DNA of 64,000 bases, taken from positions 1-64,000 of the forward strand of contig JAHJNJ010000018.1 of NCBI GenBank assembly GCA_018820925.1, given 5' to 3'. The position numbers and the translations under genes were made by a program. Numbering within the stretch: position 1 is the stretch's first letter; the number at the start of each line of letters is the position of its first letter. Positions 1 to 62,831 of the stretch are shown here, piece after piece. This DNA is from Gammaproteobacteria bacterium (lineage in GTDB: Bacteria; Pseudomonadota; Gammaproteobacteria; Burkholderiales; Gallionellaceae). A model generated the notes under the pieces. It searched no databases, was not told where the DNA came from, and worked only from the letters and a program-made list of their open reading frames with translations.

Positions 1-1281
1 GAACGTCGTGTAGTTTGATGTGTTGGTCTGGGAGTGGCAACCGCTGCTGTCACATGCCGCCGTTGTCGGTATGTGGAACACCGGTTTGCCTGTCGCCTGA
101 TTGCCGTCGTGGCACGTCGAGCACACTCCGGGCGGGCTTGCATGAACAAAGGAGGCCCCCAGGAAGGTTGTATAGTTGGACGTATTCGTCTGGGTGTGGC
201 AGAAACTGCAGGCCCCGGTGGTCACCACGTGCGTAGCCGACTTGCCCAGCGCCGTTTGTCCGTTGTGGCAGGTTGAACAGACTCCGGGCGGAGTCGAGTG
301 GGTGTAGCTCCCTCCGAGGAAAGTCGTGTAATTGCCGGTATTGGACGAAGTGTGACACACGCTGCACTGTGCAGTGGTCGACACGTGGCTGGAGGATTTG
401 CCTGAAGCATTGGCAAAACTGCCGGTATGGCAGGTCTGGCAATTGTCGGCGGGCGAGTGTGTGTATCTTATTCCCGAAAAAGTCGTGTAATTGCCGGTAT
501 TGGATTGAGTGTGACAGGTATCGCACTGGGCGCTGGTTGGGAAGTGGTCCGCCGCTTTGGGCGTTATCCCGGGCCTGCCACCATGACAGGTACTGCATAT
601 ATTCGCGACGGGAACCGGATTTGTCTCATGGTCGAAACCAGCGCCGAGGAAAGTCGTGTAATGGTTGGTGTTGGACTCTGTATGGCAGGCGTCGCAGGCA
701 TTTGACGATTGAATATGCGTTGCAGATTTGCTCACAATGCCGGGGAATGTGCCGCTATGGCAATTTGCACATGCGCTGGTGATGCCGGTGTGATTCATCC
801 GCCAATTGGAAAAACTGGTTAAATTGGCATGGCAGCTTTCACAGGGCAAAGCAGTGGGAAAGTGAGTTGAGCCCTTGCTGACGACGCTGGGATATTGACC
901 GTTATGGCAAGTGGCGCACTTGTCCTTGATACCGGGGTGAGCGAAGCTCTGCACCAGGAAACTGGTCGGGCTGGTATGGCAAACATCGCAGGCCTGGTTG
1001 GTTTGAACATGATTGTCGGGTTTGGCGATGGCACCGACACGGCTGCCTACAGAGTGGCAACCGGCACAATTCCTTGGCGTGTTCTTGAAGATTCCGTCCA
1101 CGTGGCACTGTTCGCATTTCAAGGTGGTGTGGATGCCTCTGGGCAAGAATCCCGTTTTCGCGTGGTCGAACGAAGCGGAGGACGCTGGTGCCGCTTGCGC
1201 AAGCGAAGTGATGAACAGAAATGCGCATGCCAGCAAGGCTGGGGCAATTCCACCGGTATACTTTGCAATCAGGTTCAACAT
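1..1281 (-). CDS. Periplasmic multiheme cytochrome c (at least 15 haem sites), 3' end beyond the window
   Basis: The frame is open from an ATG at 1281 to the left edge (427 codons seen, no stop), so the gene is partial. GGAG precedes the start. Residues 1-30 form a signal peptide ending AQA, implying export. There are 14 CXXCH haem motifs (first at residues 56-60 and 72-76) plus one C-x4-CH at 410-416. From about residue 200 the protein is built of ~52-residue units, each with two haem motifs, the first followed by a conserved NYTTF segment and the second by an NG..A.GK segment. This is typical of periplasmic or outer-surface electron-transfer cytochromes. It follows the 21-heme cytochrome in the same direction with a 161-bp gap, so they probably share an operon. 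The redox partner is unknown. The opposite strand and other frames contain no haem motifs. Confidence 0.9.
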   Translation of the reverse strand, partial: MLNLIAKYTGGIAPALLACAFLFITSLAQAAPASSASFDHAKTGFLPRGIHTTLKCEQCHVDGIFKNTPRNCAGCHSVGSRVGAIAKPDNHVQTNQACDVCHTSPTSFLVQSFAHPGIKDKCATCHNGQYPSVVSKGSTHFPTALPCESCHANLTSFSNWRMNHTGITSACANCHSGTFPGIVSKSATHIQSSNACDACHTESNTNHYTTFLGAGFDHETNPVPVANICSTCHGGRPGITPKAADHFPTSAQCDTCHTQSNTGNYTTFSGIRYTHSPADNCQTCHTGSFANASGKSSSHVSTTAQCSVCHTSSNTGNYTTFLGGSYTHSTPPGVCSTCHNGQTALGKSATHVVTTGACSFCHTQTNTSNYTTFLGASFVHASPPGVCSTCHDGNQATGKPVFHIPTTAACDSSGCHSQTNTSNYTTF

Positions 1282-1442
1282 AAATATTCTCCGAAGTTTC
1301 TTTTTGCGTCTACCAACATTTCCTTGGTTTTTGTATTGGTATTATTTGCAGACACTGAATAGTCTGGTCAGAACTACTGACTCGACCTACATCCTCCTAT
1401 CCATTGCGCCATTTCTCGACGAACGGCAAATTCGTCGATGCC

Positions 1443-3065
1443 CTATTTTTGCCTCCACCGCTGGCCACCGATCCTGAGTTCCTTCCAGCCATCTCCGACA
1501 ATCGTCTTCCATGACGACCCGACATGACATTGTTCGCAACGCCTTCCGAATGAACCATCGTGCTTGTCATCCTTGTCGTGACAACTCACGCAACTGCTGG
1601 CCAGTTTCATTTTTTTGAACACGGGGGTTTTGTGGCATCCGGCGCACTTGATATCTTTATGTTTGCCCTGCAACTTGAAACCCGTTTTGTCATGATTGAA
1701 ATCCCAGCTCTTCCAATCCCGGGTGTTGTGGCAAGTCTTGCAATCCGTTCCCATGGAACGCTTATGCGATTCCTTGTCCTGTTTCTCGTGACATGACCAG
1801 CAATCCGACTTGGCATCCTTGTACCTGGCGGTCGGGTGACATTTCTTGCACTCGGTTATCTGATGCTTCCCGGTCAGCGGATAGCGGGAAAGCCTGTGGT
1901 CGAATTTGGCCTTTTTCCAGGATTGTTCGTTGTGGCAAGTCTCGCATTTCTTCCCTTCCTGCCCCTCGTGTTTGTCGTCTTTCTTGTGACACGAATAGCA
2001 ATCCTGCTTCAGTTTGTCCTTGTAGATATCGCCTTTGTGGCAGTCCACACATTTGATATCGCGGTGCTTGCCACGCAAGGGGTATTTCGTCTTCCTGTCA
2101 TGGTCAAAAGGAATTTCTTTCCAGCTGCGCTCGGTGTGGCAGGCTTCGCATTTCGGGCCGAATTTTCCCTTGTGCTTGTCGTCTTTCCGGTGGCACGAAT
2201 TGCAATCCTTTTTCAACTTTTCCTTATATGGATTACCTTTGTGACAGCCGACACACTTCGCGTCCCGGTGTTTTCCGAGGAGCGGGTACTTGGTCTTTTT
2301 GTCATGGTCGAACAGGATTTCTTTCCAGCTTGCCGCGTTATGGCAGGTTTCGCACTTTGGCCCGAATGATCCCTTGTGCTTGTCGTCCTTCTTATGGCAA
2401 TCGTTGCAAAGCTTCGGTGTGTCCTTGAATTTATCTTTCGGATGGCATGCCTTGCATTTCACTTCCTTGTGCTTATCCAGCAGGTCGAAATGCGTTTTGC
2501 TGTGATCGAAGTGTGTCGTTTTCCAGTCTTTTTCCTCATGACAATTCTGGCACTCGGGTCCCAAACTGCCTTTATGCTTGTCCGCCTTCTGGTGACAACC
2601 GTTGCACTTGGTGGGCGCATCGCGATATTTTTTCTGGGGATAGTGGCAATCCTTGCAAAGAACCTTGCCGTTCAAGTGGCCACCTTTCAGAACATAGCCG
2701 GTTGTGTCGTGATCAAAATTGACCGTGCTCAGTTTGGCAATGCGCGCATCCCGGCCTTTGTGATCCGTGTGGCATTCTTTGCACGGTTTTTCTTCCTGCA
2801 TCAGGCCGTGATAGCCCTGCTTCTCGTCGATATCCTTTGCCACCTCTTTGTGACAGTCCTTGCAGAGACCGGATTGCGCAGCTTTGTCGTATGGTTTGTG
2901 GCAATTGTTGCAATCGCTTTCGTATTTGAAATGCCCCTGGATGACCTTGCCCGGCATCAATAAGTCATTTGCCGAATCGGCATGTGCGTTCACGGCACAA
3001 AACAAAGCAACAACAGCAAAAATAAATGCTCTGCCAAATGTCTTCAAAATTGAAATGGTGCGCAT
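1443..3065 (-). CDS. 21-heme periplasmic cytochrome c
   Basis: 540 residues with a signal peptide ending near AHA (residue 29) and 21 CXXCH motifs. The body repeats about every 66 residues with three haem motifs per unit, and conserved DKH, FDHD and GKH histidines that are plausible distal ligands; 7 x 3 gives 21. It is rich in lysine. I infer a long haem wire that carries electrons across the periplasm, as in iron-oxidising or metal-reducing bacteria. The ATG at 3065 lies directly next to the stop of the upstream membrane gene, showing tight translational coupling. No homologue name can be assigned from sequence alone, and the direction of electron flow cannot be deduced. Confidence 0.93.
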   Translation of the reverse strand: MRTISILKTFGRAFIFAVVALFCAVNAHADSANDLLMPGKVIQGHFKYESDCNNCHKPYDKAAQSGLCKDCHKEVAKDIDEKQGYHGLMQEEKPCKECHTDHKGRDARIAKLSTVNFDHDTTGYVLKGGHLNGKVLCKDCHYPQKKYRDAPTKCNGCHQKADKHKGSLGPECQNCHEEKDWKTTHFDHSKTHFDLLDKHKEVKCKACHPKDKFKDTPKLCNDCHKKDDKHKGSFGPKCETCHNAASWKEILFDHDKKTKYPLLGKHRDAKCVGCHKGNPYKEKLKKDCNSCHRKDDKHKGKFGPKCEACHTERSWKEIPFDHDRKTKYPLRGKHRDIKCVDCHKGDIYKDKLKQDCYSCHKKDDKHEGQEGKKCETCHNEQSWKKAKFDHRLSRYPLTGKHQITECKKCHPTARYKDAKSDCWSCHEKQDKESHKRSMGTDCKTCHNTRDWKSWDFNHDKTGFKLQGKHKDIKCAGCHKTPVFKKMKLASSCVSCHDKDDKHDGSFGRRCEQCHVGSSWKTIVGDGWKELRIGGQRWRQK

Positions 3066-3971
3066 TTAATATTTATGGACCGAGATCACATGCCATATCG
3101 AACTGAATACCAGCATGTACACCAAAGGCACGTGAAAGATATGCCACAGGGAGAACAGTTTTTCGTAGGTTGAGAACTGGGCCAGATCCCGGACTGTCGT
3201 CAGGTAGTTTCGAATGAATTGGGCGTTCTGATAAAAAAGCTCATCGAGCCGCTTCATCTGCGCATCGTTCCATTGCATCGCATTGGCGTTCGCGTACATG
3301 GCGTCTTCCAACTCGATGATTAACGTCCTGGTAAACCATTGGACCCGAAATCCCATCGTCAGGAAGTTCCACACGCTGATCCTCCCTCCCTTCGAAAGAT
3401 TCATGGCGTAACTGCGGAAATCGACGAGTTTTTGTTGAAGTTCCGGCGCGAAGCTGAAAACGGACTTAACGTCCTTTGAGCCGTCCAGTTCATCCTGCAG
3501 TTGCTGGAATGAAAGATTTCTTCCATAAAGACCGTTGTGGATTTTGGTGTAGAAGAAGCGCCCGAAAATCCCGCTTCCGGACACCAGCAGCATGCACGCC
3601 ATCGCCACGCCGGCATTTACCGACCGAAGCGTAAAGGTGGAATGAAAAACGATTAATGCCGGCCCCAGAACACCGAATGCCATATGCCATTTGAACCACT
3701 TTGGCAGAAGTCCCCAGTTCCGCATGAAGCCTATTCGCTTGCGAATCGGATAAATCAGCAGGGTTAGCATCATTATTCCGCCAACCAAACCTATGTTGTA
3801 GCCGACAGCGTCACCGGGTTTGTAAATTTCGTCTTGAGAAATAATGGAACCCGCCGCCATCAACACCGTAATCACTATCAAATACAATGTCCAACCGTAG
3901 TCTTTGGGCGGATGCCTGTGCTTTGGTCTGCGCTTCTCAACCAAATTTCTTGTTGCTGTTTGTGTGGTCAT
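3066..3971 (-). CDS. Integral membrane protein with cytochrome b-like histidines, partner of the multiheme cytochromes
   Basis: 301 residues from the ATG at 3971; an in-frame TTG one codon upstream is less likely. Hydrophobic segments lie near residues 28-45, 60-78, 95-112 and 120-140, with a last one at the C-terminus. Histidines sit in or beside them: WHMAF and VFHSTF in the third segment, and WHIFH and WHVISVH in the last. A ~120-residue soluble stretch lies between. This arrangement fits a b-type cytochrome that exchanges electrons between quinone and the periplasm. First gene of a three-gene leftward operon with the 21-heme and 15-heme cytochromes. Haem binding and quinone contact are inferred. 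It does not look like NapC/CymA, since it has no CXXCH. Confidence 0.75.
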   Translation of the reverse strand: MTTQTATRNLVEKRRPKHRHPPKDYGWTLYLIVITVLMAAGSIISQDEIYKPGDAVGYNIGLVGGIMMLTLLIYPIRKRIGFMRNWGLLPKWFKWHMAFGVLGPALIVFHSTFTLRSVNAGVAMACMLLVSGSGIFGRFFYTKIHNGLYGRNLSFQQLQDELDGSKDVKSVFSFAPELQQKLVDFRSYAMNLSKGGRISVWNFLTMGFRVQWFTRTLIIELEDAMYANANAMQWNDAQMKRLDELFYQNAQFIRNYLTTVRDLAQFSTYEKLFSLWHIFHVPLVYMLVFSSIWHVISVHKY

Positions 3972-4651
3972 CAAATACTCAATAAAACTCCGGGGGAATG
4001 CCGGTCGCGAACCTGTTCACATACAAGGCCGCGTCGGCAGTACTTACGCAAGCCCTGCTGCCCGACAGGACACCTTCGCCATACCCATCGAAATAAGGAT
4101 TCCAATCTGCTACGAATGCATACACTCCTGCCTAACAGGGCACGAGCTCTTGCCGCGCACGGTATTCCATTGCCAGGAAATTCTCTGCAAACGCCACGTC
4201 AGATTGTCAAATTTACGTCAGGCTGCGTCAGTTTCTCGTCAACCTTAATTGGTAAACATGGTTTTCACAATACGGACTTTAGTCTGAATCTGATACCCAC
4301 AAAAAAGATGCGGGGCACTGAAACGCCTTTAAATAAGGCGTTGAGGGGGTATTCCACAACCACTCATACCCACTCCTGAAGCATGTGTATATCTCGAAAC
4401 GGAATGGTTGCAGGTGATTAACTTCGGATAATGATGAAGAACCTGGAGAAATATGCGGAGGGATATCTGTGACTCAAACTGCAAGATACTTTGTATTGGG
4501 CCGGATTCCAAAATTACCCAATCCGAGCACTTCGCTTACGTTCATCTGTTTGAGTAATCGGTGAGTAATTCACGACCGGGTATATTGATACGAGTATTGC
4601 TGGTGAACCCGACCTCGATGAAAAGCATTGGAACAATCATTTCCGAATTAT
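3972..4651. other. Intergenic region upstream of the multiheme operon
   Basis: 680 bp with no convincing gene on either strand. It should contain the promoter of the leftward cytochrome operon. Visible structure: five GTCA (TGAC on the minus strand) half-sites at 4197-4241 and a hairpin with 8-bp arms AACGCCTT / AAGGCGTT at 4322-4342. I cannot fix the promoter. Confidence 0.6.
4197..4241 (-). promoter_or_regulatory. Phased TGAC direct repeats, possible response-regulator site
   Basis: Read on the minus strand, TGAC occurs five times with starts about 11, 10, 11 and 8 bp apart, all in one orientation, roughly 225-270 bp before the ATG of the membrane cytochrome gene. PhoB/OmpR-class regulators are known to bind direct repeats with 10-11 bp spacing. 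The function is an inference. Confidence 0.35.
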
Positions 4652-49920: not shown

Positions 49921-50196
49921 ATGAGTCCTGCTTCCTTTCCCCTCATGATGGCCGACGCGGGCACGTGCGTGACTGTCGTCGCCCTCCTGGGCGGCGCCGG
50001 TCTCGACCGGCGCATGACCGAGATGGGCCTGAACATTGGCGCCGAGTTGGTCGTTCTCCAGCGCCAGGGCGGCGGCCTGGTGGTGATGCGCGGCGCGACG
50101 CGCTATGCGCTCGGCGGCGGCATGGCCCACAAGGTCATGGTCGCTCCGTGCAGAACGCCCACGGCCGATCTTGCCGAAGCGGGAACACTGCCATGA
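49921..50196 (+). CDS. feoA: Ferrous iron transport protein FeoA (first copy)
   Basis: 91 residues with an SH3-like FeoA fold: GLDRRMTEMGLNIGAELVVLQ is the family core. Preceded by AGGAGAAA. Overlaps the second FeoA by 4 bp. Confidence 0.88.
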   Translation: MSPASFPLMMADAGTCVTVVALLGGAGLDRRMTEMGLNIGAELVVLQRQGGGLVVMRGATRYALGGGMAHKVMVAPCRTPTADLAEAGTLP

Positions 50197-50423
50197 CAAC
50201 CCTCGACAAACTGAAGATTGGCGACCGCGCCAAACTGGTCGGCTACACGGAAACCGGCAAGGGTTATCGCCGCAAGCTGCTGACCATGGGCCTGACGCCC
50301 GGCATCGAGATCGGCGTCGTGCGTGTCGCTCCAATGGGCGATCCGGTGGAGATACGGGTGCGCGGCGCATCCCTGTCCCTGCGCAAGGAAGAGGCCGCCG
50401 CACTGGACGTGGAGAAACTATGA
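50193..50423 (+). CDS. feoA: Ferrous iron transport protein FeoA (second copy)
   Basis: 76 residues from the ATG at 50193. A more typical FeoA than the first copy: RRKLLTMGLTPGIEIGVV core and GDPVEIRVRGASLSLRKEEA ending. It is thought to regulate FeoB. Overlaps both neighbours by 4 bp. Confidence 0.9.
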   Translation: MTTLDKLKIGDRAKLVGYTETGKGYRRKLLTMGLTPGIEIGVVRVAPMGDPVEIRVRGASLSLRKEEAAALDVEKL

Positions 50424-52765
50424 TGATGAAGCACACTTGCACCATTGGCCTGGTCGGCAACCCCAACTGCGGCAAGACAACGCTTTTTAATGCACTCACC
50501 GGATCGAAGCAGCGCGTCGGCAACTGGCCAGGCGTCACCGTCGCGCGCAAAAGCGGCGAATATCGCCTGGATGGGCAGCAGATCGAGGTCGTCGATCTGC
50601 CCGGCACCTATTCGCTGGATGTGATGGATCGCGAAATCTCGCTCGACGAAATGGTCGCACGCGACTACGTGCATGCGGGCGAAGCCGACCTGATCGTCAA
50701 CATCGTCGATGCTTCCAACCTCGAACGCAACCTGTACCTGACGACGCAATTGGCCGAAATGGGCGTGCCCCTGCTGGTCGTGCTCAACATGGGCGATGTG
50801 GCCGAAGCCAGGGGCATGCGTGTGAATGCCGCCCAATTGGCCACGCAACTGGGCTGTCCGGTCGTGCCCGTCGTTGCCGCACAGGGCAAGGGCATCGTCG
50901 AACTGAAGGCGGCAATCCTCAAGGCTGCCGGCGAACAACCGCGCGCCAATGCGCGGCTGACTTATGCGGAAAGCGTCGAAGCCGCCATCGCAGCCCTCGC
51001 CGGCCGCATGCCTGAAGTGCATGGCATCGCGCCGCGCTGGCTGGCGGTGCGCCTGCTGGAAGGCGACGATCTGGCGAAACAGAGCGTCGGCCCGGAAATC
51101 GCGGCACTGGCGGCGCAACACGCCGGCGCATTCGAGGACGATCTCGACATTTTCGTCGCCGATGCGCACTACAGCCTGGCCAACCGCATCGCCAATGCGG
51201 TCGTAACGGTCAGCGGCCGCGTTGCGCGCGACAGCACCGGACGTATCGACCGTGTGGTGCTCAACCGTGTGCTGGGCATCCCGATCTTCCTGTTCATGAT
51301 GTACTTGATGTTCATGTTCACCATCAAGCTCGGCGGCGCCTTCATCGATTTCTTCGACCAGGCCACCGGCGCGCTGCTGGTGGATGGCGTTGCGGAACTG
51401 CTCGGCGGCATGAACGCACCCGAATGGCTGACGTTGCTGCTTGCCAAAGGCATCGGCGGCGGTTTGCAGACGGTCGCCACCTTCATCCCGGTGATCGGCT
51501 TCCTGTATCTATTCCTCTCGGTGCTGGAGGATTCCGGCTACATGGCGCGTGCCGCCTTTGTCATGGATCGCTTCATGCGCTGGGTCGGCCTGCCGGGAAA
51601 ATCCTTCGTGCCGCTGATTGTCGGCTTCGGCTGCAATGTGCCGGCGATCATGGCGACACGCACGCTGGAACACCGCCGCGACCGCCTGATGACCATTGCC
51701 ATGGCGCCTTTCATGTCCTGCGGCGCGCGGCTGCCGGTCTATGTGCTGTTCGCGGCGGCATTCTTTCCGCACAGCGCGCAAAACGTGGTGTTCGGCCTCT
51801 ACCTGATCGGCATCGCTGCCGCCGTCATGACCGGCCTGATCCTGAAAAATTCGCTGCTCAAAGGCGAAGCCACGCCGTTCATTATGGAACTGCCGCCCTA
51901 CCACCTGCCCACGCTGAAAGGCGTGCTGCTGCACACCTGGGAACGCCTGAAGAGTTTCACCTTCAACGCCGGGCGCATCATCGTGCCGATGGTGTTGGTG
52001 ATCAACGTCCTCAACGCGGTCGGTACCGATGGCAGCTTCGGCAACGAAGACAGCGATAAATCGATGCTGGCCGGCGTCGGTCGCAGCATCGCACCCGCTT
52101 TCGGCCCGATGGGCATGAGCGAGGAGAACTGGCCCGCCGCCGTCGGCATTTTCACCGGTGTGCTGGCCAAGGAAGCTGTCGTCGGAACGCTCAACGCCGC
52201 CTACACGGCGCTGGCGGAAAGCGCTGCCACGGCCAAGGGCACAGCAGCGGAAGCGGAAGAAGCATTCAGTCTGAACGCAAGTCTGTCGGCAGCCTGCGCC
52301 ACCATTCCCGACAAACTGGGCGAGGCCTTTGGCGATTGGGCCGATCCGCTCGGCCTGAATGTCGGCGACCTGAGCGACCAGGCAGCGGTGGCCGAGAAAC
52401 AGGAGGTCGCTACCGGCACGTTCGGCGCCATGGTGGCACGCTTCGACGGCACAGCCGGCGCCTTTGCCTACCTGTTGTTCATCCTGCTCTACTTCCCCTG
52501 CACGGCGGCCATCGCGGCGGTGCATCAGGAAAGCGGCACACGCTGGACGCTGTTTGTCGGGGCATGGACAACCGGTCTGGCCTATGGCCTGGCCACGCTT
52601 TATTACCAGATCGCCACATACGCGAATCACCCCGTGCAGGCGTTGGCCTGGATCGGCGGCGTGGTTGCCCTGTTTGCGGCGGCGTTCATCACCATGCGTC
52701 GCTATGGTCGGCAGGCAAATTTCCCGGCCACGCCGGTGCCACAGATTATTCAGGAGCCGTCATGA
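50420..52765 (+). CDS. feoB: Ferrous iron transporter FeoB
   Basis: 781 residues from the ATG at 50420; ATGs at 50423 and 50426 are alternatives. An N-terminal G-protein domain (P-loop GNPNCGKTT, G3 DLPGTYSL, G4 NMGD), then two Gate domains with the FGCNVPAIMATRTL motif and the FeoB core. Main uptake route for Fe(II). Coupled to feoA and feoC. Confidence 0.96.
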   Translation: MMMKHTCTIGLVGNPNCGKTTLFNALTGSKQRVGNWPGVTVARKSGEYRLDGQQIEVVDLPGTYSLDVMDREISLDEMVARDYVHAGEADLIVNIVDASNLERNLYLTTQLAEMGVPLLVVLNMGDVAEARGMRVNAAQLATQLGCPVVPVVAAQGKGIVELKAAILKAAGEQPRANARLTYAESVEAAIAALAGRMPEVHGIAPRWLAVRLLEGDDLAKQSVGPEIAALAAQHAGAFEDDLDIFVADAHYSLANRIANAVVTVSGRVARDSTGRIDRVVLNRVLGIPIFLFMMYLMFMFTIKLGGAFIDFFDQATGALLVDGVAELLGGMNAPEWLTLLLAKGIGGGLQTVATFIPVIGFLYLFLSVLEDSGYMARAAFVMDRFMRWVGLPGKSFVPLIVGFGCNVPAIMATRTLEHRRDRLMTIAMAPFMSCGARLPVYVLFAAAFFPHSAQNVVFGLYLIGIAAAVMTGLILKNSLLKGEATPFIMELPPYHLPTLKGVLLHTWERLKSFTFNAGRIIVPMVLVINVLNAVGTDGSFGNEDSDKSMLAGVGRSIAPAFGPMGMSEENWPAAVGIFTGVLAKEAVVGTLNAAYTALAESAATAKGTAAEAEEAFSLNASLSAACATIPDKLGEAFGDWADPLGLNVGDLSDQAAVAEKQEVATGTFGAMVARFDGTAGAFAYLLFILLYFPCTAAIAAVHQESGTRWTLFVGAWTTGLAYGLATLYYQIATYANHPVQALAWIGGVVALFAAAFITMRRYGRQANFPATPVPQIIQEPS

Positions 52766-59790: not shown

Positions 59791-59816
59791 TATTGCCTGT
59801 TCCAAACTTCTCTTTG

Positions 59817-61238
59817 CTATGCCTTCAACGCCACGAACACTTCTTCCAGCATCTTCTTGGCATCGCCGAACAACATGCGGTTGTTCTCCTTGTAGAACAG
59901 CGGATTGTCCACGCCCGCGTAACCGGATGCCATGCTGCGCTTCATCACGATGGAGGTCTTGGCCTTCCAGACTTCCAGCACCGGCATACCGGCGATGGGG
60001 CTGCCCGGATCGTCCTGCGCTGCCGGATTCACAATATCGTTCGCGCCAATCACGATGGCAACATCGGTATCCGGAAAGTCCTCGTTGAGTTCGTCCATTT
60101 CCATCACGATGTCGTAAGGCACCTTGGCTTCGGCCAGCAGCACGTTCATGTGGCCGGGCATGCGACCCGCGACCGGGTGAATGCCGAAGCGCACATTGAC
60201 ACCCATCTCGCGCAACGCCTGGGTGATCTCGTACACCGTGTGCTGCGCCTGTGCCACCGCCATGCCGTAGCCCGGCACGATGATCACGTTCTTGGATTCA
60301 CGCAGCAATTCCGCCGTTTCCACGGCACTGATTGGCGACACTTCGCCCGCCGGTTGCGCATCGCCGCTGGCCGCAGGCGCAGTGCCGCCGCCGGTGCCGA
60401 ATCCGCCCGCGATCACGCTGATGAAGTTGCGGTTCATCGCGCGGCACATGATGTAGGAAAGAATCGCACCGCTGGAACCCACCAGCGCGCCGGTGACGAT
60501 CAGCAGGTCGTTGTTCAGCATGAAGCCGGTCGCCGCCGCCGCCCAGCCCGAGTAGCTGTTGAGCATGGACACCACCACCGGCATGTCGGCGCCGCCGATG
60601 GCCATCACCATGTGGATACCGAACAGCAGCGCGATCACGGTCATCACGGTCAGGCCGATCATGCCGGCGTTGATCGATTCGGCATGCAGGAACTGGTAGC
60701 CGAACACGATGACGATCAGCAGTCCCAGCAGGTTGAGCCAGTGGCGTGCCGGCAGCAGCAGCGGCTTGCCGCCGATCTTGCCCGAGAGTTTGCCGAAAGC
60801 GATGATGGAACCGGAGAACGTTACGGCACCGATCAGAATGCCGACGTAGATCTCGATCTCGTGAATGGCCTTTTCAGCGCTGCTCAAATTCATTGCCGCT
60901 ACCGGATCGATGTAATTTGCGAAACCGACCAGGCAGGCAGCAAGACCGACCAGGCTGTGCATCAACGCGACCAGTTCCGGCATTTGCGTCATTTGCACCT
61001 TGCGCGCCGCATAGAGTCCGACGCTGCCGCCTACCAGCATTGCGCCGATGATCCACGGCATACCGGCCATCGTGACGCGCGGGCCGAACACCGTCGCCAG
61101 CACGGCGATGGTCATGCCGATCATGCCGTAGAGATTGCCGCGTCGCGAGGACTCGGGATGGGAAAGACCGCCCAGACTCAGGATAAAGAGAATGGTCGCA
61201 CCAATATAAGAAACAGTTGCCAAGCTTGCAGACATCAT
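59817..61238 (-). CDS. pntB: NAD(P) transhydrogenase subunit beta
   Basis: 473 residues. Nine or so membrane segments, then the NADP-binding domain III with [13 protein letters not shown] near residue 318. With PntA it links proton movement to hydride transfer from NADH to NADP+. Follows pntA by 12 bp. Confidence 0.96.
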
Positions 61239-61250
61239 GATGATTTATCC

Positions 61251-62831
61251 TTATTTACGGAACATCGACAGCATGCGTCGGGTAACGGCGAAGCCGCCGA
61301 ACATATTGACCGCGGTGAGCGCAATGCCCGCCACCGCCAACCAGCGTATCCATGCATCCGGGCGATCCAGTCCTTCCGAAAGAGGAGGAGCGATCTGCAC
61401 CAGCGCACCGATGGCGATAATGCTGCTGATCGCATTGGTCACACTCATCAACGGCGTATGCAGGGCCGGCGTGACATTCCACACCACCATGTAGCCGACG
61501 AAGCAGGCGAGCACGAACACGGTGAAGTGTCCGAGGAATGCTGCGGGCGCATAGGCACCAACGAGCAGGAACAGCAGCGCGGCAATGCCGAACATGACTG
61601 CCGTTTTGGTTGCCGAGGCTGGTGCGCCACCACCACCATGGCCATGCGCAGGCGCTGGTGCGGGTTTCGCTGCCGCCGGTTTAGGCGCTGGCGGCAGTTT
61701 CGGCGCAGGCGCAGGCCAGGTGACCTCGCCGTCCTTGATGACTGTCAGACCGCGAATCGCATCATCTTCCATGTTGACGTTGATGTTGCCGTCCTTGGTC
61801 TTGCACAACTCTTCGGTCAGACGGAACAGGTTGGTTCCATACAGGGTGGAGGACTGCTTGGCCAGACGGCTGTTCAGATCGGTGTAACCGACGATGGTCA
61901 CGCCATGTTTCACCACGGCCTTGCCGGGTTCGGTCAGTTCGCAATTGCCGCCGCGTTCTGCCGCCATGTCGACGATGACGCTGCCGGGCTTCATGCTCTG
62001 CACCATCTCGGCGGTGATCAGCCTTGGCGCGGGCTTGCCCGGGATCAAAGCGGTCGTGATGATGATGTCCACTTCCTTGGCCTGCTTGGCGTACATCTCG
62101 CGCTGCGCCTGCTGGAAGCCCTCGCTCATTACCTTGGCGTAACCGCCGCCACCGCCGCCTTCTTCCTCGTAATCAACCTTGACGAATTCGCCGCCCAGCG
62201 ACTTGACCTGATCGGCCACTTCGGCACGCGTGTCGTTGGCGCGCACAATGGCGCCCAGACCGGCGGCGGTGCCGATGGCAGCCAGACCGGCCACGCCGGC
62301 ACCGGCGATGAATACCTTGGCCGGCGGAACCTTGCCTGCGGCCGTGATCTGGCCGTTGAAGAAACGGCCAAAAGCGTTGGCGGCCTCGATGACGGCGCGG
62401 TAGCCGGCGACGCCGGCTTGCGAGGTCAGCGCATCCATCTTCTGCGCACGGCTCAGCATGCGCGGCAGACAATCAATGGCCAGCACGGTGGCTTTCTTCG
62501 CCGCCAGTTGTTGCATCAATTCGGGATTTTGCGCGGGCCAGATGAAACCGATCAAATGACCGCCTTCGCGCAGCAGACCGACTTCTTCCTTTGTCGGTAC
62601 GCTTACCTTGAAGACGATGTCGGATTCAGCCCACAGCTTGGGAGCTCCAACGATGATCTCGGCACCTGCAGCGCGATAAGCATCATCACTGCAATTCGCC
62701 GCCTCTCCGGCACCGGATTCAACCGCAACTTTGAAACCCAGCTTGATGAGTTTCTCCACGACCTCCGGTACTGTGGCAACGCGCTTCTCCCCTGCTGCCG
62801 TTTCACGGGGAATTCCTATCATTAATGGCAT
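61251..62831 (-). CDS. pntA: NAD(P) transhydrogenase subunit alpha
   Basis: 526 residues. NAD-binding domain I (GAGVAGLAAIGTA near residue 175), a proline/alanine/histidine linker with HGHGGGG near residue 400, then four membrane segments of domain II. Single full-length alpha subunit, not the split PntAA/PntAB type. Confidence 0.96.
   Translation of the reverse strand: MPLMIGIPRETAAGEKRVATVPEVVEKLIKLGFKVAVESGAGEAANCSDDAYRAAGAEIIVGAPKLWAESDIVFKVSVPTKEEVGLLREGGHLIGFIWPAQNPELMQQLAAKKATVLAIDCLPRMLSRAQKMDALTSQAGVAGYRAVIEAANAFGRFFNGQITAAGKVPPAKVFIAGAGVAGLAAIGTAAGLGAIVRANDTRAEVADQVKSLGGEFVKVDYEEEGGGGGGYAKVMSEGFQQAQREMYAKQAKEVDIIITTALIPGKPAPRLITAEMVQSMKPGSVIVDMAAERGGNCELTEPGKAVVKHGVTIVGYTDLNSRLAKQSSTLYGTNLFRLTEELCKTKDGNINVNMEDDAIRGLTVIKDGEVTWPAPAPKLPPAPKPAAAKPAPAPAHGHGGGGAPASATKTAVMFGIAALLFLLVGAYAPAAFLGHFTVFVLACFVGYMVVWNVTPALHTPLMSVTNAISSIIAIGALVQIAPPLSEGLDRPDAWIRWLAVAGIALTAVNMFGGFAVTRRMLSMFRK

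Follow-up and report, generated by a model that had tools for sequence, protein, structure and literature searches.

A probable PCC3 porin-cytochrome cluster at a contig end in a Gallionellaceae genome and a ferredoxin-FAD gene that tracks PCC3

What electron conduit do the multihaem cytochrome genes at the edge of this Gallionellaceae contig encode, and in which direction would it carry electrons? The window, that is, the whole stretch of 64,000 nucleotides that was analyzed, opens with three genes of what is very probably a complete PCC3 porin-cytochrome cluster, the first of two copies in the genome, cut off here on its left side. PCC3 clusters occur widely and encode some very haem-rich proteins (with up to 85 haem sites, described in 2017 as the largest number reported; PMC5566968), and their function and direction are so far putative. 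The host is a relative of iron-oxidizing bacteria in which the assembly has split PCC3, with the porin on the next contig.

Cluster genes and the contig junction

The three genes are located on the minus strand of contig C9. The gene for the inner-membrane protein (IMP; 3066..3971) encodes 301 amino acids from an ATG, one codon upstream of which a TTG is located, and is followed at a spacing of 0 bp by the gene for a periplasmic multihaem cytochrome (1443..3065; 540 aa) that carries 21 CXXCH motifs, with 25.7 residues per haem, and a hydrophobic N-terminal segment (residues 6-24). After a further 161 bp, the third ORF (1..1281) is open at the left edge and provides the N-terminal 427 aa of an extracellular-type multihaem cytochrome, with 14 CXXCH and one CX4CH in the window. 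The ORF coordinates (3971-3066 and 3065-1443) and motif counts bear out the original prediction of three same-direction genes, in which a membrane protein gene directly abuts that of a 21-CXXCH cytochrome and precedes a cytochrome of at least 15 sites, giving 36 or more haem sites. In 1000 shuffles of the same residues, the 21-haem protein shows 0.31 CXXCH on average and never more than 3, and 1000 shuffles of the third protein, joined as described below, yield a mean of 0.27 and a maximum of 4; the actual counts are far above these values and are therefore not due to chance. The 680-base intergenic stretch 5' of the IMP gene (3972..4651) is a probable promoter region, and a consensus scan of it returned no promoter-like site on the minus strand.

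Does the cluster lack a porin, as the window alone would indicate? Base 1 of the window is base 1 of C9, i.e. the left edge is the contig end, and bases 1-103 of contig C42 from the same genome are the exact reverse complement of window bases 1-103. A genome search with window bases 1-1500 matched no contig besides C9 and C42. The third gene is completed on C42 to 784 aa with 23 CXXCH and four CX4CH, or 27 sites, of which 13 belong to the C42 piece (one inside the overlap); this number is possibly an underestimate because the contig break falls within repeats. Together with the 21-haem cytochrome, 48 sites are reached. If the contigs are joined in this manner, the 27-haem protein has 29.0 residues per site (34.1 counting CXXCH alone), and Thr, Ser, Ala and Gly make up 45.9% of its residues. 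Its gene is followed, outside the window at C42 1258-3882, by an 874-aa beta-barrel protein gene, a homologue of which is modeled with 22 barrel strands and produces barrel matches. The synteny of relatives supports the join, given that the C9 and C42 flanks lie on two sides of one locus in four relatives with the same cluster (L100, L040, L042 and L043); L041 shows the C9 side alone, and L046 neither flank. Thus, the earlier statement that no porin is visible holds within the window and fails beyond the contig end, where its own suggestion of looking past the left edge leads to the barrel gene via the 103-base overlap. A new conduit type that consists of three genes only, dispenses with a porin and is unrelated to PCC3 would agree with the porin-free window, but the contig end, the overlap, the continuation and barrel gene on C42, the synteny and the homology leave it a negligible probability, and we reject it unless the C9-C42 join is false.

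Identity as PCC3 and comparison with other conduits

Across C9 and C42, the gene order is IMP, 21-haem cytochrome, 27-haem cytochrome and beta-barrel protein, and both the order and the motifs are conserved in relatives. Because C42 completes the third gene and the barrel gene follows, with synteny supporting the join, we assign the cluster to PCC3 (He et al. 2017, PMC5566968), although the original prediction could not match the arrangement to a named system. Like the PCC3 clusters of Sideroxydans, Leptothrix and Gallionellaceae (PMC5566968, PMC10734462, PMC12442390), it comprises four genes, including those for an IMP of ~300 aa with SGXXG and two WX3HX13H motifs and a periplasmic cytochrome of about 21 haem sites. 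A barrel gene within the cluster and a large second cytochrome that is rich in Thr, Ser, Ala and Gly, with a low residues-per-haem ratio inside the 22-39 range of PCC3, complete the resemblance, and these two features rely on the contig join. The genome contains two PCC3 copies, as published for ES-1 and CL21. It differs in its haem numbers, with copy 1 at 21/27 and copy 2 at 21/12, and, as far as the main texts of these papers could be searched, in a ferredoxin-FAD gene that accompanies PCC3.

The paired histidines that had been noticed in the membrane protein are located in two WX3HX13H motifs, W93-X3-H97-X13-H111 and W277-X3-H281-X13-H295, and SGXXG is found at 134 (P0001 numbering; motif definitions from PMC5566968). 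The five transmembrane helices of PCC3 are matched by hydropathy peaks in five zones, as identified by a simple scan rather than a topology program, and by model helices at 25-47, 55-79, 89-107, 118-145 and the end of 236-300 (mean pLDDT 74). A Foldseek fold search returned only weak helical matches, none better than E 1.1. On the basis of its motifs, which He et al. liken to those of quinone-reactive cytochromes b (PMC5566968), the IMP is a predicted di-haem b protein.

The cluster resembles MtrCAB, MtoAB and PioAB in combining a barrel with multihaem cytochromes for trans-envelope electron transfer. Profile searches of the whole genome agree with the earlier remark that no MtrB-like porin or MtoA gene is visible: the MtrB/PioB barrel PF11854 has 0 matches at E <= 0.001, and the best match to the DmsE/MtoA decahaem profile TIGR03508 scores 32.9 bits vs a cut-off of 192.2, with the three sub-cut-off matches all falling in PCC3 cytochromes. 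An MtrAB, MtoAB or PioAB identity was rejected, as neither the barrel nor the decahaem cytochrome was found in the genome. In ferric reductase/NOX-type flavocytochromes (FRD), a flavin on the cytoplasmic side feeds b haems. These proteins share two HX13H pairs with the IMP (PMC5566968), but the IMP has no match to the Pfam FRD domain, its ferredoxin-YpdA-like partner is a separate protein, and its wires outside are of the c type. HX13H pairs also occur in the IMPs of PCC4 and of porin-less clusters (He et al. 2017); in subgroup II of PCC4, the IMP gene has an Fe-S gene upstream, and most porin-less clusters contain another redox protein. Unlike PCC3, PCC4 has no extracellular multihaem cytochrome and uses 4-, 5- and 10-haem cytochromes, and its IMP is described as lacking significant overall homology to the PCC3 IMP.

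A ferredoxin-FAD gene that tracks PCC3

Genome comparison reveals that a gene for a membrane-anchored ferredoxin-FAD oxidoreductase is usually arranged head-to-head with the PCC3 IMP gene. Among the 369 genomes of the class sample, 41 have both genes, one the IMP only, two the FAD gene only and 325 neither; in the phylum sample, the two genes occur in the same 4 of 319 genomes. The pairing is broken in G165 (99% complete), where the FAD gene occurs without an IMP match, and in G224 (92% complete), where two IMPs occur without a FAD match. In the present genome, the FAD gene adjoins PCC3 copy 2 (contig C39), not the window copy, whose closest relatives (L040-L043, L048 and L049) also lack an adjoining FAD gene. 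The family sample yields 77 strong IMP matches, 23 of which have no FAD gene within 4 kb on the contig. The link of the FAD gene to copy 1 is at best in trans.

In the FAD protein, His replaces one cluster Cys, and the flavin domain, which resembles YpdA and thioredoxin reductase, is possibly circularly permuted relative to YpdA. The tracking of PCC3 by this gene is new here; such a partner is not reported in the searchable main texts of PMC5566968, PMC10734462 and PMC12442390. Its occurrence suggests, from sequence, either a cytoplasmic NAD(P)H/Fe-S input to PCC3 or a maturation role. The gene offers a concrete handle on whether PCC3 is tied to a cytoplasmic donor, an assembly need or neither, and it could mark PCC3 loci apart from other multihaem clusters.

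Direction of electron flow

In the conduit that we propose, the IMP would carry two stacked b haems that span the inner membrane, the 21-haem protein would serve as a periplasmic wire, and the 27-haem protein would pass through or sit on the barrel, facing outside, such that extracellular acceptors or donors could exchange electrons with the inner membrane. A route from the inner membrane to the periplasm or cell surface, as originally predicted, is still the best reading, but the arrangement does match a named system, and a barrel gene follows it. In a new element of this scheme, the membrane-anchored ferredoxin-FAD oxidoreductase would generally serve the inner end of PCC3 on the cytoplasmic side, and the conduit may draw its electrons from NAD(P)H or a different cytoplasmic donor. 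In that case, the flow would be outward, because passing electrons from Fe(II) directly to NAD(P)+ is uphill; overall, we regard the case for outward flow as evenly balanced. It is conceivable, at somewhat under even chances, that PCC3 is a five-part NAD(P)H-linked extracellular reductase acting via ferredoxin-FAD, the di-haem IMP and the 21- and 27-haem wires, and we hold equally tentatively that such a reductase would be present even in iron oxidizers and would not be a quinone-linked iron oxidase.

He et al. 2017 instead modeled PCC3 as an uptake route, in which electrons from extracellular Fe(II), minerals or cathodes reach the quinone pool through the 27- and 21-haem wires and the IMP, and the FAD protein would then be incidental or would act on quinone and not on NAD(P)H. 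Both parts of this explanation are serious possibilities, although we lean against them. Among iron-oxidizing Gallionellaceae, PCC3 is a common possession (PMC10734462), the IMP has a match in 62 of 150 family genomes at E <= 0.001 (one weak), and the likeness to quinone-reactive cytochromes b fits a quinone link, which is itself a hypothesis of He et al. (PMC5566968). According to the accessible part of PMC12442390, moreover, the inner-membrane gene of PCC3 copy 2 in Sideroxydans CL21 is significantly upregulated when the cells could oxidize iron. However, the accessible part of PMC8788666 describes both PCC3 clusters of ES-1 (S. lithotrophicus) as downregulated on Fe(II), and in the ES-1 proteome table, as far as accessible, the extracellular PCC3 cytochrome Slit_1448 scores 0 in all columns, and the remaining PCC3 proteins that it lists lie between 0 and 63 percentile. 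Uptake also leaves unexplained the ferredoxin-FAD gene that tracks PCC3. In these partial sources, ES-1 expression speaks against Fe(II) oxidation by PCC3, the CL21 data are mixed and make the outward direction contested, and the iron oxidation originally suggested is unproven.

The ferredoxin-FAD protein might also carry no conduit current and instead help the very haem-rich PCC3 cytochromes to mature, for instance by providing the Ccm system with reduced haem or thiols, which we consider unlikely on both counts. Such a role would fit the similarity of the flavin domain to YpdA and thioredoxin reductase, but a CXXC disulphide is absent from this domain in all 21 aligned members that have it. 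The ccm genes adjoin PCC3 in several lineages in a profile scan that covered loci from outside the Gallionellaceae: a redoxin, CcmE and a CcmC-like protein (Cytochrom_C_asm) are encoded beyond the FAD gene in G377 (L104), CcmH and CcmF in G790 (L108), where they separate the FAD gene from the IMP gene, and CycH/CcmI-type proteins next to the IMP in L058, L061 and, weakly and below the cut-off, L060. In G485, the place of the FAD gene is taken by a lone 115-aa ferredoxin-like ORF that has one complete cluster motif and that, unless it is a remnant, fits an electron relay somewhat better than a maturation factor.

A candidate fifth component of PCC3

Which genes accompany the porin-cytochrome cluster PCC3 of He et al.? 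The surroundings of PCC3 relatives reveal a gene, here the FAD gene, for a membrane-anchored ferredoxin-FAD oxidoreductase of ~434 residues, which we propose as a fifth PCC3 component. Searching with the PCC3 inner-membrane protein (IMP) gave 24 named loci, of which 16 include the FAD gene. In 14 of the 16 the FAD and IMP genes lie on opposite strands; the exceptions are L057 and L063, the two loci labelled Deltaproteobacteria. Bradyrhizobium also carries it. The sole match in the present genome (contig C39, 51025-52320, minus strand; L033:3026-4318) adjoins PCC3 copy 2, head to head with its IMP gene. An HD-like gene (Pfam match below cut-off) takes this place upstream of copy 1, the window cluster. 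A Sel1/ankyrin-repeat gene directly follows the FAD gene, before the PCC3 genes, at L057:6395-8434 and L103:7737-9782 and likewise, judging from a similar sequence start, at L063:6395-8434.

The FAD-gene family tracks the PCC3 IMP across the sampled genomes. Both are present in 60 of 150 genomes of the family sample (IMP only, 1; FAD only, 4; neither, 85; G115, a weak IMP match, dropped), 41 of 369 of the class sample (1, 2 and 325), 4 of 319 of the phylum sample (0, 0 and 315) and 7 of 150 of the order sample (0, 0 and 143), the last after leaving out the 11 of 18 genomes matching the IMP at E <= 0.001 whose match is weaker than E 1e-30. FAD genes were sought with profile A3 at E <= 1e-80 in the phylum sample and with P0006 at E <= 1e-60 elsewhere; because each search scored only a genome's top candidates, 4 or 5 when FAD genes were sought in the class and phylum samples and at most 11 in the other searches, a few genes may have been missed. 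Fisher's test, ignoring kinship, gives p = 8e-36 (family) and 7e-51 (class), and the 42 IMP genomes of the class sample spread across 36 genera. Among the family exceptions, the IMP-only genome G224 is 92% complete, and the FAD-only genomes G235, G247, G154 and G165 are 82%, 69%, 75% and 99% complete; given its completeness, G165 counts as a genuine counterexample on present evidence. Among the class exceptions, the IMP gene of G485 is still paired head to head with a 115-residue ferredoxin-like ORF, and the neighbours of the FAD gene in G472 include a barrel (outer-membrane porin) gene and one for an extracellular-type cytochrome.

The FAD gene can also be retained without a linked cluster. 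G203, whose only PCC3 is of the copy-1 type, keeps it 821 kb away, where one or more of its neighbours resemble those at the copy-2-type locus of G215 (L099 versus L101). Of the two FAD genes in G196, one neighbours a PCC3 barrel gene and the other shows no PCC3 gene within the 12 kb read. Such retention is consistent with service in trans.

By word search, the main texts of PMC5566968 and PMC10734462 contain no mention of an FAD gene tied to PCC3, nor do the literature matches listed; the figures or supplements of He et al. may already show it. The accessible portions of PMC13386937 and PMC12442390 yielded no FAD-type PCC3 component, and the latter calls each CL21 PCC3 copy a set of four genes. 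The four-gene cluster itself is known; it is the FAD partner that deserves further work.

Architecture and possible role of the FAD protein

The FAD protein combines a di-cluster ferredoxin with a Pyr_redox_3 flavin domain similar to YpdA, though with a score under the NCBIfam cut-off. Of 22 proteins, 21 carry at the N terminus a hydrophobic stretch with basic residues behind it; the short L102 ORF does not. The second cluster motif starts with CIGHG in all 22 aligned proteins, placing His where ferredoxins usually have their second Cys; the same position of the first motif holds Ser (8), Ala (7) or Cys (7). Clusters with such replacements can be [3Fe-4S] or His-ligated and have a higher potential. 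No CXXC occurs in the flavin domain of the 21 aligned members having it, so the protein is probably not a disulphide reductase.

Building on the observed gene content, order, motifs and co-occurrence, we propose that the FAD protein would provide a cytoplasmic ferredoxin-FAD input to a conduit in which the IMP would act as a di-haem b protein and the multihaem cytochromes as wires, together with the barrel. Fe(II) reduction of NAD(P)+ is uphill; with NAD(P)H as donor, electrons would flow outward. The use in iron oxidation suggested by the original prediction meets divided evidence in three reports. In ES-1, both PCC3 clusters are down on Fe(II) (PMC8788666), and in its proteome the listed PCC3 proteins stand at 0 to 63 percentile, the listed extracellular cytochrome at 0 throughout (PMC12016527), which fits a purpose different from Fe(II) oxidation. 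The CL21 data do not agree well with such a purpose: in cells able to oxidize iron, copy 1 is down and copy 2 up, the copy-2 IMP alone significantly (PMC12442390). A serious rival to the proposed input is that the FAD protein is a maturation factor: several lineages have ccm genes next to PCC3 (L104:9232-11097, L108:6992-10016, L058:8114-8911 and L061:7567-8877, from a profile scan that took in loci other than those of Gallionellaceae).

PCC3 copies and other clusters

PCC3, as described by He et al. 2017 (PMC5566968), comprises a porin, an extracellular multihaem cytochrome, a periplasmic one (median 21 haems) and a ~300-residue IMP that has five helices, an SGXXG motif and two WX3HX13H motifs. 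The window cluster shows every testable feature and belongs to PCC3, a named system to which the original prediction could not match the arrangement. Its minus-strand ORFs encode the IMP (3971-3066), a 21-CXXCH cytochrome (3065-1443) and a third-gene cytochrome running from 1281 beyond base 1, out of the window's left edge; a recount upholds the predicted 21 and at least 15 haem sites. Contig C9 ends at base 1. Its outermost 103 bases recur exactly on contig C42, the match failing at 104, and the C42 piece is oriented so as to extend the third gene. The joined cytochrome has 784 residues with 23 CXXCH and 4 CX4CH, a haem number that may be a minimum because the break lies inside internal repeats. 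An 874-residue protein with an N-terminal hydrophobic segment is encoded 80 bases further on. The porin that the original prediction did not see is absent from the window only, as the joined C42 places a barrel gene beyond the left edge. Among six loci compared, C9 and C42 flanking genes lie on opposite sides of one cluster in L100 (from the single-contig genome G203), L040, L042 and L043, at 72-88% flank DNA identity; L041 has the C9-side flank only and L046 neither.

The Gallionellaceae pangenome report lists complete PCC3 in 26 genomes and partial PCC3 in 11 (PMC10734462). The window IMP finds its best named matches in MAGs labelled Nitrosomonadales bacterium (85%), Sideroxyarcus (78%) and Sideroxydans (74%), and on this basis the genome is assigned to Gallionellaceae. 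Among the 24 named loci, all found with the IMP, the whole gene order is present in 10 and continues up to the contig end in 9; one locus ends at once, in another the cytochrome and barrel genes are inverted, and three (L050, L054, L056) have a PCC3-type IMP gene without any multihaem cytochrome gene seen downstream, suggesting remnants or IMPs acting in trans. In the IMP tree, copy 1 lies beside L040-L043, whose second cytochromes carry 29-41 sites, and copy 2 falls in a group with second cytochromes, where present, of 12-13 sites; the two larger groups are separated with moderate support (91/85 and 86/86).

Copy 2 (L033:5043-11079, contig C39) consists of an IMP, a 21-haem cytochrome, a short second cytochrome (11 CXXCH and 1 CX4CH) and a barrel. 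A third, different set on contig C50 (L034:3836-6582) encodes in a row an NAD(P)H/FAD/2Fe-2S reductase-like protein, a 192-residue IMP-like protein (DUF4405-like, below cut-off) and an 8-haem cytochrome; it resembles the porin-less IMP clusters of He et al. (PMC5566968). An FGE-sulfatase-domain protein gene follows this set. Profile searches of the genome found no MtrB/PioB barrel and no MtoA match over cut-off. Elsewhere, the window carries a FeoB ferrous iron transporter gene (50105-52765) and a plus-strand ORF of 1010 residues (59793-62825) with no Pfam match, which may be a shadow frame and is overlapped by long minus-strand ORFs at 59817-61238 and 61251-62831.
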